A stretch of DNA of 64,000 nt from Methylophaga sp. (GTDB lineage Bacteria > Pseudomonadota > Gammaproteobacteria > Nitrosococcales > Methylophagaceae). Location of the stretch: the NCBI GenBank assembly GCA_011053005.1, contig DRHW01000037.1, forward strand, positions 1 through 64,000, read 5' to 3'. Below, piece after piece: positions 591-3,501 of the stretch. Positions within the stretch are counted from its first letter, which is position 1. Each line of letters starts with the position of its first letter. The translations under genes and the position numbers were made by a program. The notes beneath the pieces are model-generated. The model searched no databases. It saw only the letters and a program-made list of their open reading frames with translations, and was not told where the DNA came from.

Positions 591-1790
591 TTATTGACTA
601 GTTATACGTGCGAACCTTCTTTTGCCCACTTGAAAAACAGCTTCAACGCCTCTTTCAATCAATAAGGCTTTATCTTCGACTTTTTCACCATCAATTTTAA
701 CCGCGCCTTGTTTAATCATTCGAATGGCTTCTGATGTACTTGCCGTTAAACCTGCTTCTTTAATCACATTGGCTATTGGCATACCTTCAACACCGACATC
801 AATTGTAATGTCCTCAATATCTTCAGGTAACTCACCTTTTTTAAATTGGTTTTCAAAACCATCACGAGCTTGCTGCCCTTCTTCTATACTATGGAAGCGT
901 GAAACGATTTCTTGTGCAAAGTCCTTTTTGATATCGATTGGGTTTTTACCAGCATCAACATCATTACGCCATTGCTGAATATCTTCGATACTTCTGAAAC
1001 TTAAAAGATCTATATAACGCCACATTAAGTCATCGGATATCGACATTAGTTTGCCAAAAATATCTTTCGGACTATCACTAATACCAATATAGTTGCCTAA
1101 AGACTTAGACATCTTTTGAACGCCATCAAGTCCTTCTAAAATCGGCATCGTTAAAATAGACTGTTGTGGTTTGCCATAAGCCTTTTGTAATTCACGGCCC
1201 ATTAATAGGTTGAACTTTTGATCTGTTCCGCCTAATTCAACATCGGCATTTAATTCAACTGAGTCGTAACCTTGTATTAATGGATACAAAAATTCATGGA
1301 TAGCGATAGGTTGACCACCTTTATAACGCTTATCAAAATCATCTCGTTCTAACATTCTGGCAACTGTGTGATTTGATGCTAAACGAATCATGTCAGCTGA
1401 CGACAACGCATTCATCCAATGAGAATTAAAAACAACCGTGGTTTTTTCTGGGTCTAAAATCTTAAAGACTTGTTCTTGATATGACTTTGCATTTTCTTTA
1501 ACTTGTTCGGGAGTTAGAGGTTTACGAGTCACATTTTTACCCGTCGGGTCACCAATCATGCCAGTGAAGTCTCCAATTAAAAATAATATTTCATGACCGA
1601 GATCCTGAAATTGTTTTAATTTATTGAGTAAAACAGTATGACCTAAATGAAGATCAGGTGCTGTAGGATCAAAACCCGCTTTAATGCGAAGTGGACGACC
1701 GGTCTCAAGCTTTTCAACTAATTCGCTTTCAACCAAAATCTCTTGTGCGCCTCGACGTATTATCGCTAAGGATTCTTTTACAGAAACCAT
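591..1790 (-). CDS. tyrS: Tyrosyl-tRNA synthetase
   Basis: Charges tRNA-Tyr with tyrosine in the cytoplasm. The class I signatures are present: HLGH at residues 48-51 and KMSKS at 226-230. They are followed by a C-terminal S4-like RNA-binding segment ending in a basic tail. The frame stays open 22 codons further upstream, but ATG at 1790 is preceded by GGAGAT at proper spacing and gives the family N-terminus, so it is chosen. Length is about 399 residues, normal for the TyrZ-like bacterial form. It lies directly upstream of the rRNA operon leader and shares its direction. Confidence 0.96.
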
Positions 1791-1990
1791 ATTATCTCCA
1801 TTTAAATTTAATTTTGTCGGCATAATATCATAAAGGCCTATCATTAAGATGGTCATCTCCTACTAATCAGTAGTCAAGATTACAATTCATAACTATAATA
1901 GATAGGCTTAATATCTGAATCCAAAAGTATTGGCGATTATCATCAACAAGTGCTATTGTTTTTTTCGATTCATTTCGGAGAGAAATTATT

Positions 1991-2098
1991 ATGTTGGCAA
2001 AATTAGAAAAAAATATCATCGAAAACTTTGGCGGAATTATTTTTGCATTTTCAGCTTTTTGGTTTGCACTAATAGCATACGGCTTGTTAAGCCAATAA
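1991..2098 (+). CDS. Small single-span membrane protein (paralogue 1)
   Basis: A 35-residue frame, ATG to TAA, with a GGAGAG ribosome binding site 8 bases upstream. It has a charged start (MLAKLEKNIIENF), then a hydrophobic span from about residue 14 to 33. It aligns along its whole length with the second small gene at 2259. Shared positions are KLE, I, ENF, IIF, and YGL near the end. A strong palindromic terminator follows 13 bases after the stop. The paralogy and ribosome binding sites make it a real gene in my view. I do not recognise the family and assign no function; a small subunit or regulator of a membrane complex is one possibility. Confidence 0.65.
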   Translation: MLAKLEKNIIENFGGIIFAFSAFWFALIAYGLLSQ

Positions 2099-2110
2099 TT
2101 CGTTTCAATA

Positions 2111-2155
2111 TCGCCCATAAAAAAACCAGTCATTGACTGGTTTTTTTATGGGCGA
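2111..2155. terminator. Bidirectional terminator
   Basis: A perfect 22-bp inverted repeat centred on 2133. The core stem CCAGTCA/TGACTGG is flanked by A7 on one side and T7 on the other, so it can act as a rho-independent terminator in both directions. It separates the two small membrane-protein genes and ends the transcript of the first. Confidence 0.85.
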
Positions 2156-2181
2156 AAGCTTTATATTGATCTGCGCATACA

Positions 2182-2223
2182 TTGATCCATGTCAATGCTT
2201 CCTCGTATAAAATAAATCATAAT
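2182..2223 (+). promoter_or_regulatory. FNR/ANR-like site and promoter of second small gene
   Basis: TTGATCCATGTCAA at 2182-2195 matches the FNR/ANR consensus TTGAT-N4-ATCAA at 9 of 10 positions. A -10 element CATAAT lies at 2218-2223. With a start at 2230 the box is centred at -41.5, the classic class II activator position. An alternative sigma-70 reading, TTGATC-N18-TATAAA (2182-2211), would place the box over the -35, where it could repress. Confidence 0.5.
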
Positions 2224-2258
2224 TTATCCACACTATTTTTTATATTTCGAGGTGAGCC

Positions 2259-2369
2259 ATGGATAAATTGGAACATTTTATTGTTGAAAACTTTACGTTA
2301 ATTATTTTTGTAATTGCTTTATCGTGGATTTTTTTAGTCAGTTATGGATTGATTATGTCTTTATCTTAA
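2259..2369 (+). CDS. Small single-span membrane protein (paralogue 2)
   Basis: A 36-residue frame with ribosome binding site GAGGTGA 3 bases before the ATG. The N-terminus MDKLEHFIVENF is followed by a hydrophobic span from about residue 13 to 34. It is clearly related to the protein at 1991: the KLE, ENF, IIF and YGL positions are shared and the length is nearly equal. The upstream region carries an FNR/ANR-like box, suggesting oxygen-responsive expression. It ends 10 bases before the convergent alkC stop. The family is unknown to me. Size and topology resemble small oxidase or transporter subunits, but no sequence motif supports a specific one. Confidence 0.65.
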   Translation: MDKLEHFIVENFTLIIFVIALSWIFLVSYGLIMSLS

Positions 2370-2379
2370 ATAATTGAAC

Positions 2380-3501
2380 TCACACTATTAATTCAAATTT
2401 GGTAGTCGCATAACTCACACCGTTGATTAATAATTCAACAAAGTGTGTACCAGCATGATATTGCCGTGTTGTGATAAGTCTGAATGGATGACGTTTTTTT
2501 AGCACCAAGCTGGTTTGGCCATGTAATGTAATATTTTTCCATTTGAATACCTTACTACTGGTTGAACCATTCGCTTTGACGTGATGAATTCTATAATCAA
2601 TAACCAGCTTTTGGGTTTCAATCGAGTCTGATTGCAATAAAGTGTCAATGTCAAGATTGTCACCGAGTAGTATTGTCGTTTTTGCCAGTTGAAAATTCAA
2701 CAGCACTACTTTAGGACATTCGCTATAACCCAATAAAACGAAGACTTCAGGGTATCCCTGTTTCACTAGACTTCGTAAGGCATGACGAATAAGCCACTTC
2801 CGTTCAGTGGAAGCATCAACTAACCAAGACTGGCATAACTTAATCACCAGTTGAGGATGATCTTTGGCAATATCATTGAGATTATTCGCCACTGATCGAC
2901 GTACATATAAACTTGGATCATCCTTCAAGTTTTCCAATATTGGGAATAGTGGTGCTGGATCTTCACAAAACTGAGTGAGTCTTTTCCCCCAAGGCAATCT
3001 TGGTCGACTACCTTCAGATGCTAATCGCCTTACATGCACATCGTCATCACGCGTCCATTTCATAAGAAATGCATATGTAAGATCAGCATGCTGTGCGATA
3101 AAAGGTCGAATGGCAAATTCTGCTGAGAATAATGAGGTTAGGTTTTTTAATACATTTAATGCTATTTCAGGATGATTTAAGCCAAACACCGCAACATAGT
3201 CAATTAATGGCCAAGCAGTGAAACCTCCCCAACTCTCGCGTGATGTTGTTCCATCAGGCCAATGCTGTTTTACAGCTAATAAAACATCTGCAGCATCAGC
3301 AAAGTCAGCCGGCAAATAATCAGCTAAAACGACAATTAAATGTTCAACTCTTTGTTTGAGTTCTAGTTTCTCTAGCCCAACCAATGCCTGATTAATAAAT
3401 TGCTGTGCAGGAAAATCAGTCAGGCAGAGAGTTAATACCTGACTAATTCTATTGACCGCTTGTTCACCAAGCTGATCTTTCATGAGTTTTTGCTCACTCA
3501 T
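2380..3501 (-). CDS. alkC: DNA alkylation repair protein, AlkC type with Ig-like tail
   Basis: Resembles AlkC (COG4335), a HEAT-like-repeat DNA glycosylase that removes N3-methyladenine and related lesions without flipping the base. Helical repeats fill about residues 1-285, with the family-typical VRRLASEGSRPRLPW near residue 155. The last ~80 residues look like a beta-rich, Ig-like domain, known in one AlkC subfamily. It lies 13 bp after rlmD on the same strand, so the two are probably co-transcribed. Assignment to AlkC rather than AlkD rests on this central motif and the tail. Confidence 0.78.
   Translation of the reverse strand: MSEQKLMKDQLGEQAVNRISQVLTLCLTDFPAQQFINQALVGLEKLELKQRVEHLIVVLADYLPADFADAADVLLAVKQHWPDGTTSRESWGGFTAWPLIDYVAVFGLNHPEIALNVLKNLTSLFSAEFAIRPFIAQHADLTYAFLMKWTRDDDVHVRRLASEGSRPRLPWGKRLTQFCEDPAPLFPILENLKDDPSLYVRRSVANNLNDIAKDHPQLVIKLCQSWLVDASTERKWLIRHALRSLVKQGYPEVFVLLGYSECPKVVLLNFQLAKTTILLGDNLDIDTLLQSDSIETQKLVIDYRIHHVKANGSTSSKVFKWKNITLHGQTSLVLKKRHPFRLITTRQYHAGTHFVELLINGVSYATTKFELIV

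Follow-up and report, generated by a model that had tools for sequence, protein, structure and literature searches.

Tandem paralogous single-helix membrane proteins in Methylophaga and its relatives: candidate aerobic and low-oxygen accessory proteins of the cbb3 oxidase

Mitochondria contain oxygen-regulated COX isoforms, such as yeast Cox5a/5b and mammalian COX4; Escherichia coli has two CydX/AppX paralogues, of which AppX is encoded in appCBX; and CcoM, a bacterial protein with one transmembrane (TM) helix, is encoded outside the cco operon. CcoM is described as a 36-aa subunit of the cbb3 oxidase of Pseudomonas stutzeri that is essential in adaptation to oxygen limitation (PMC10433244). 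YnhF/CydY is reported as the fourth subunit of E. coli cytochrome bd, a single-helix, low-oxygen protein whose gene lies away from cydABX, and CydX as a 37-residue single-helix oxidase subunit encoded in cydABX (PMC6853902). Subunit IIa of B-type (ba3) oxidases is given as a single-helix protein of 34-71 aa with a conserved Trp and a PX1-3G(T/A) motif, and its gene as standing beside that of subunit II (PMC3128077).

Here we analysed two short open reading frames (ORFs), A and B, in a stretch of 64,000 nucleotides from a Methylophaga contig (hereafter, the window). The likeness of their products to CcoM lies in the 36 aa that CcoM shares with B and in its being a subunit of cbb3 oxidase, the enzyme to which we tentatively assign A and B below, rather than in any demonstrated homology, and A and B differ from it in forming a paralogous pair with separate promoters that is known here from one family. 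By description, they also resemble YnhF/CydY in having a single helix, in the low-oxygen production predicted for B and in the location of the gene off the oxidase operon. However, YnhF/CydY is a subunit of a bd oxidase, while cydA was found in just 20 of the 44 genomes that carry A or B; and the CydX and AppX genes lie within oxidase operons, whereas A and B have no link to cydA. The B-type subunit IIa, a comparison prompted by what we take to be an FW motif in the Thermus protein, was rejected as an identity for A and B because both the PX1-3G(T/A) motif and adjacency to subunit II are absent. In the mitochondrial case, two interchangeable small subunits are chosen by oxygen level; the proteins concerned are unrelated to A and B, between which such an exchange would be our inference only.

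Two paralogous single-helix proteins of one family

The two tandem ORFs described in the original prediction are present in the window and encode proteins of 35 aa (A, MLAKLEKNIIENFGGIIFAFSAFWFALIAYGLLSQ) and 36 aa (B, MDKLEHFIVENFTLIIFVIALSWIFLVSYGLIMSLS), each preceded by the ribosome binding site that had been claimed for it (Table 1); among the A members, an SD-like core is found upstream in 38 of 41 when a loose pattern is used. Their paralogy, also claimed before, was borne out by an end-to-end alignment in which 15 columns are identical (K, L, E, I, E, N, F, I, I, F, W, L, Y, G, L). The Smith-Waterman score of A against B is 76 (shuffled mean 20.6, sd 4.4), a value reached by 0 of 20,000 shuffles and again by 0 of 20,000 when the N-terminal and hydrophobic parts were shuffled separately. 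With either A or B as query, just these two proteins are matched in the window's own genome and no third copy is found. On these comparisons, A and B are true paralogues.

Table 1. Positions of the two genes, their putative control elements and the flanking genes in the window
Feature	Position	Strand	Remarks
Gene A	1991-2098	+	35 aa, single-TM protein; start one codon later in many orthologues
Gene B	2259-2369	+	36 aa, single-TM protein; candidate low-oxygen paralogue of A
Ribosome binding site of A, GGAGAG	1977-1982	+	Shine-Dalgarno-like, from sequence
Ribosome binding site of B, GAGGTGA	2249-2255	+	Shine-Dalgarno-like, from sequence
Probable promoter of A	1931-1959	+	-35-like TGGCGA at 1931-1936; TG-extended -10-like TATTGT at 1954-1959
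Putative FNR/ANR box of B, TTGATCCATGTCAA	2182-2195	+	One mismatch to TTGATNNNNATCAA
-10 hexamer of B, CATAAT	2218-2223	+	29 nt past the box centre
Hairpin between A and B	2111-2155	.	21-pair stem, 3-base loop; probable intrinsic terminator for both strands
HEAT/DNA-alkylation-repair-like gene	2380-3501	-	Converges on B, 10 nt from the B stop
tyrS	591-1856	-	Flanking gene, not conserved as a neighbour

The two proteins follow the consensus MxKLExxIIExFTxIIFxFxxxWIxLVAYGLIxx. Of the 81 members tabulated, two have 37 aa and one is truncated at the end of a contig; all others have 34-36 aa. Hydropathy indicates one TM segment, with a 19-residue Kyte-Doolittle maximum of 2.1 in the A protein of the window and 2.6 in its B protein. 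The C-terminal side is almost devoid of positive charge (K/R occurs there in 4 of 41 A proteins and in 1 of 40 B proteins), and the N-terminal side carries some. A topology with the N terminus inside and the C terminus outside is suggested for both proteins, the call being weaker for B because its N-terminal flank is net acidic on average (K+R 1.3, D+E 3.2). The AlphaFold2 model of A is a single helix spanning residues 2-34 (mean pLDDT 94.5), and this predicted helix is uninformative about partners.

The statement in the original prediction that the proteins belong to no recognised family is in line with the searches of Pfam, NCBIfam, PHROGs and the PDB, none of which gave a convincing match. 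Matching against Pfam covered 32 members of both types at E values up to 10, with filters that drop most matches above about 0.1, and YbgT_YccB (the CydX/AppX family) is not among the seven Pfam families matched by any of these members. We attributed to chance the sub-threshold matches to DUF3285 (E 0.033, B only) and to phrog_31453 (best E 0.012, 8 of 32 members), and likewise the cannabinoid receptor constructs that formed the best PDB match (E 0.48) of the A protein of G030, a genome of the Methylophaga group. The A/B profile matched zero PDB chains at E values up to 10, in a searched set that need not include a CcoM chain. In the literature searched, including the parts of PMC9264385 and PMC12719787 covered by term searches, we found no mention of the pair.

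With a 32-member profile, confident matches were obtained in 44 of 57 genomes of the one family that includes Methylophaga, and these represent four genera. None of six genomes of the sister family gave a confident match to the profile, and in a sample of 369 genomes from the class such matches were confined to the family, with weak partial matches outside it in G356 (E 4.8e-4) and in G067 and G265 (both near 4e-3); in viral contigs, the single peptide pattern used gave zero matches. At E values up to 0.1 the list grows to 49 genomes, five of which (G008, G009, G011, G018 and G028; E 0.009-0.089) were excluded as members, the weak match in G011 falling on a decayed relic of A. G028 was included in the profile search of 57 genomes and is absent from the later searches of 62 genomes. 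Many of the family genomes are draft assemblies, and their contigs often break at or near the A-B locus, as in G007, G019 and G024 (L125-L130), G005, G008, G026, G412, G420 and G424; in three genomes the break falls between A and B.

Within one genome, A and B are on average 41% identical (33 genomes), and in a tree the B sequences form a group apart from the A sequences, on few columns and with weak support. The sequences show the locus to be coding and the tandem order of two subfamilies to be conserved. Pooled dN/dS, calculated only from pairs with pS 0.05-0.55, amounts to 0.36 in A, where 79 of 820 pairs qualified, and to 0.38 in B, where 60 of 780 did, in a set that includes G029 and G031. 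Conservation of the frames in relatives with mostly synonymous change, which had been put forward as a check on the original prediction, is thus seen across 44 genomes, and both genes are under purifying selection. That the ORFs are untranslated, their likeness reflecting a duplicated RNA or chance, is scarcely credible considering the frames kept in these 44 genomes, the low dN/dS, the SD-like sites, the defined termini and the shuffling results. In G411 (L088:7754-7876), the frame of A is broken near its start and B is intact; the break corresponds to one base fewer than in G410 within an A tract and may be either a sequencing error or a real loss, and this A was omitted from the tables of A members.

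Promoters, hairpin and neighbourhood of the two genes

The original prediction held that the two copies are transcribed separately and used under different conditions, and it missed the regulation and offered no function. Its claim fits what is found upstream of the genes, namely an FNR-type box on B and a different promoter on A. The promoter of A was placed by eye, as a consensus reading, from the conserved aactgctatctt-like upstream element, an extended -10-like element that is recognisable in many relatives. The upstream regions of B in relatives share a TTGATC(C/T)AGATCAATG-like sequence, which corresponds to an FNR/ANR box. Allowing at most one mismatch, TTGATNNNNATCAA occurs upstream of B in 36 of 37 usable regions (38 of 40 overall), and in 58 of 4000 shuffled B upstream regions; the regions set aside were those of G019, whose contig starts 51 nt upstream, and of G029 and G031, whose single copies are not clear B orthologues. 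Since a one-mismatch box in 64 kb is not significant alone, the claim rests on this conservation. In 27 of the 37 B promoters, the window included, a -10 hexamer lies at +29 from the box centre, the next commonest real offset being found in 7; when the downstream parts were shuffled 1000 times, a hexamer at +29 turned up in 1.4 promoters on average and in at most 7. This spacing places the box centre at about -41.5 relative to the predicted start, which is the class II position of an FNR-type box. G408, in which B lies far from A, retains a perfect box.

The genome of the window has an FNR gene (G000:C5:159063-159749; 263 bits, over the cut-off), and it contains 38 perfect TTGATNNNNATCAA sites compared with 8 for a reversed control pattern. 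FNR was found in 49 of 62 genomes of the order, in 45 of them above the cut-off of the family. In Methylophaga nitratireducenticrescens, narXL is listed with an upstream FNR/ANR box of this form (PMC4689864). The B promoter is probably of the FNR/ANR-activated class II type, with FNR as the expected binding protein. Upstream of A, a box with at most one mismatch occurs in only 3 of 41 regions (G007, G017 and G023), where it is located 30-31 nt before the ATG of A, just past the -10-like element; from its position, FNR may repress A in these three genomes.

A box within one mismatch is also found upstream of ccoN, in 32 of 37 B-bearing genomes, whereas just 1 of the 6 genomes whose copy is single or of A type has it (Fisher p 0.0014, with no correction for kinship, although four of the six seem to belong to a single clade); it also occurs in 70 of 2350 shuffled ccoN upstream regions. 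This count covers 37 of the 38 B-bearing genomes, G414 being left out, and omits second ccoN copies (G001b, G427b and those in L216, L218 and L226, the last belonging to G010); the A/B-less genomes G008, G412, G420 and G424 stand outside it, and three of these four have the box. Five of the 37 B-bearing genomes have no ccoN box within one mismatch, G031 has a ccoN box and B was not found there, and the A-only genome G010 has a boxless operon plus, outside the count, a second ccoN copy whose perfect box lies 853 nt upstream. The ccoN box and the presence of B appear to go together in most genomes examined, with a reservation for the second ccoN of G010, and co-regulation with ccoNOQP would hold for B and not for A.

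The hairpin that had been noticed between the genes is real (Table 1). The stretch around it folds at -37 kcal/mol (z -8.0) and its arms carry A and T tracts, and it is plausible that it forms a terminator usable in both directions; a simple terminator scan listed no terminator at this place, probably because the T-run sits within the stem. In 33 loci, A and B are close together in tandem (under 600 nt apart), and a hairpin with 10 or more pairs follows the A stop by 11-27 nt in 29 of them; its core is CCAGT/ACTGG in 25 of the 29, and no such hairpin was detected in G413-G416. As the HEAT/DNA-alkylation-repair-like gene faces B with an interval that leaves no room for a hairpin, its transcript may run antisense through B, and the hairpin between A and B may also end the transcript of this convergent gene. 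The hairpin could likewise end an antisense RNA, and Ldr, Ibs and Hok peptides resemble A and B in length, in their one TM helix and in occurring as tandem paralogous copies. Nevertheless, a role as type I toxins, or as comparable peptides that damage membranes, under antisense RNA control is very improbable for A and B, considering that they form stable subfamilies across genera, that B has FNR-type control, that the genes show the pattern of co-loss described below and that the genome of the window has only two copies.

The conserved tyrS-alkC context assumed in the original prediction did not hold. Adjacency of tyrS to A is seen in only 3 of 48 mapped loci (G000, G001 and G006), with a variable left flank, and the gene named 'alkC', which we describe as HEAT/DNA-alkylation-repair-like (Pfam DNA_alkylation 27.6 bits, HEAT 25.2 bits), comes next after B in 19 of 48; tyrS-alkC was rejected as a functional context. 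In G002, the stretch between A and B encodes a 222-aa protein (L104:6724-7392) that matched nothing in Pfam or NCBIfam at 1e-5; homologues of it precede B in G024 and A in G020. Some genomes have a SulP-family anion transporter (L085:6086-7618 and equivalents) shortly upstream of A, BicA/DauA-like by NCBIfam models though below their cut-offs, and in 12 of 12 such genomes from four genera the gene of this orthologue (80-100% identity) stops 55-79 nt short of A, in the same orientation. Regulation of this transporter by A, and by B, seems very unlikely, however, because the other genomes with A or B, that of the window included, lack this orthologue and contain at most a SulP protein of about 40-47% identity at another place, some having none that reaches the threshold, and because a conserved position alone can be ancestral synteny.

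Co-retention of the pair with ccoN

All 44 family genomes with A or B gave a match to ccoN. Twelve family genomes without A and B were searched, and eight of them have ccoN and four do not (G009, G011, G018 and G022, with completeness of 81%, 99%, 99% and 84%, respectively); in these four, the syntenic site by ppsA is on the contig, without an intact A or B. The eight ccoN-bearing genomes were left out because the contig ends in or before the locus (six) or because the RlmD neighbour was not found (two). Among the 48 resolved loci, intact A or B is accompanied by ccoN in 44, and neither is present in four.

In a single-gene tree of RlmD, one clade unites the four ccoN-less genomes with G010, G012 and G016, in which A and ccoN are kept. 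Within this clade, the sister of G011 is G012, and G009 clusters with G018 and G022, which implies at least two losses; G011 has kept the promoter of A together with a decayed reading frame. The association with ccoN, as read from these genomes, rests on at least two losses, mostly in small genomes (1.2-2.2 Mb), and anything else lost with cbb3 would therefore fit equally. Genome reduction is a confounder of the match between the pair and ccoN, though G029 (1.1 Mb) keeps ccoN and one copy.

The other oxidases do not track the pair. The aa3 subunit CoxA is found in G011, G018 and G022, which have neither A nor B, in the sister family, and in 15 of 44 genomes with A or B at the threshold used; A and B were rejected as aa3 subunits on this distribution, and as bd subunits on the cydA count given above. 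Wherever the pair and ccoN share a contig, they are at least 47 kb apart, and they are therefore not linked in an operon.

Two further features of the cbb3 genes may be recorded here. A hydrophobic ORF of 45-56 aa, which we take to be reminiscent of CcoM, directly follows ccoP in G000, G006, G029 and G033 (in the genome of the window it is L215:3927-4064, minus strand, with the similar ORFs in L219, L221 and L229); the ORF of G000 gave no convincing match in the PDB. A second ccoN homologue of 472-483 aa, beside ORFs of 80-81 aa, is found in L216 (genome of the window) and L218 (G034), with no CXXCH-bearing ORF nearby, and represents a non-canonical C-type oxidase.

Alternatively, A and B might be small membrane regulators of another low-oxygen process (such as transport, denitrification or membrane energetics) or of general membrane stress, co-regulated by FNR and lost along with cbb3 while being no part of the oxidase. 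An FNR box such as that of B would suit any member of the FNR regulon, to which the excess of perfect sites in the genome of the window is pertinent, and three of the four genomes without ccoN likewise lack FNR. However, G009 has FNR and lacks both ccoN and A, and the reverse is seen in G029 and G016 (the latter 67% complete), where no FNR was seen and ccoN and one copy are kept; the presence of FNR was rejected as the cause of the distribution of A, being contradicted by these three genomes. In addition, the copy that tracks ccoN in the A-only clade is A, which has no FNR box. We regard a regulatory role of this kind as quite possible, though somewhat on the unlikely side.

Proposed role and implications

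We tentatively favour the reading that the cbb3 oxidase of this lineage has an accessory subunit, or assembly/stability factor, of its own, with A as the aerobic isoform and B as the low-oxygen one, and we hold it with a confidence that falls a little short of evenly balanced. According to this proposal, they would be two isoforms of a family-specific single-helix protein of the inner membrane, with the N terminus probably inside, that serve the oxidase from genes located away from its operon. A would be made from an ordinary promoter, and when oxygen falls, FNR/ANR would switch on B together with the cbb3 operon ccoNOQP, so that B would replace or supplement A at low oxygen. Considering that many bacteria outside the family possess cbb3 oxidases and that the class sample of 369 genomes gave no confident homologue of the pair beyond the family, A and B cannot be a universal cbb3 subunit.

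A more specific version is that the pair is a bacterial counterpart of mitochondrial hypoxic switching, with A and B as two subunits of 34-36 aa in one cbb3 oxidase whose operon lies far from their adjacent genes, and in which FNR-induced B replaces the aerobic A and retunes the assembly, stability or oxygen affinity of cbb3, with FNR perhaps also repressing A in G007, G017 and G023. We consider this version unlikely as it stands, although it is not far-fetched.

A and B represent a small-protein family without a Pfam, NCBIfam or PHROGs model and with a clear regulatory logic. If the link to cbb3 is true, bacteria, like mitochondria, would exchange tiny accessory subunits of a terminal oxidase according to the oxygen level, and lineage-specific subunits below the usual gene-calling length would tune high-affinity respiration in methylotrophs, here ones that live across oxygen gradients.
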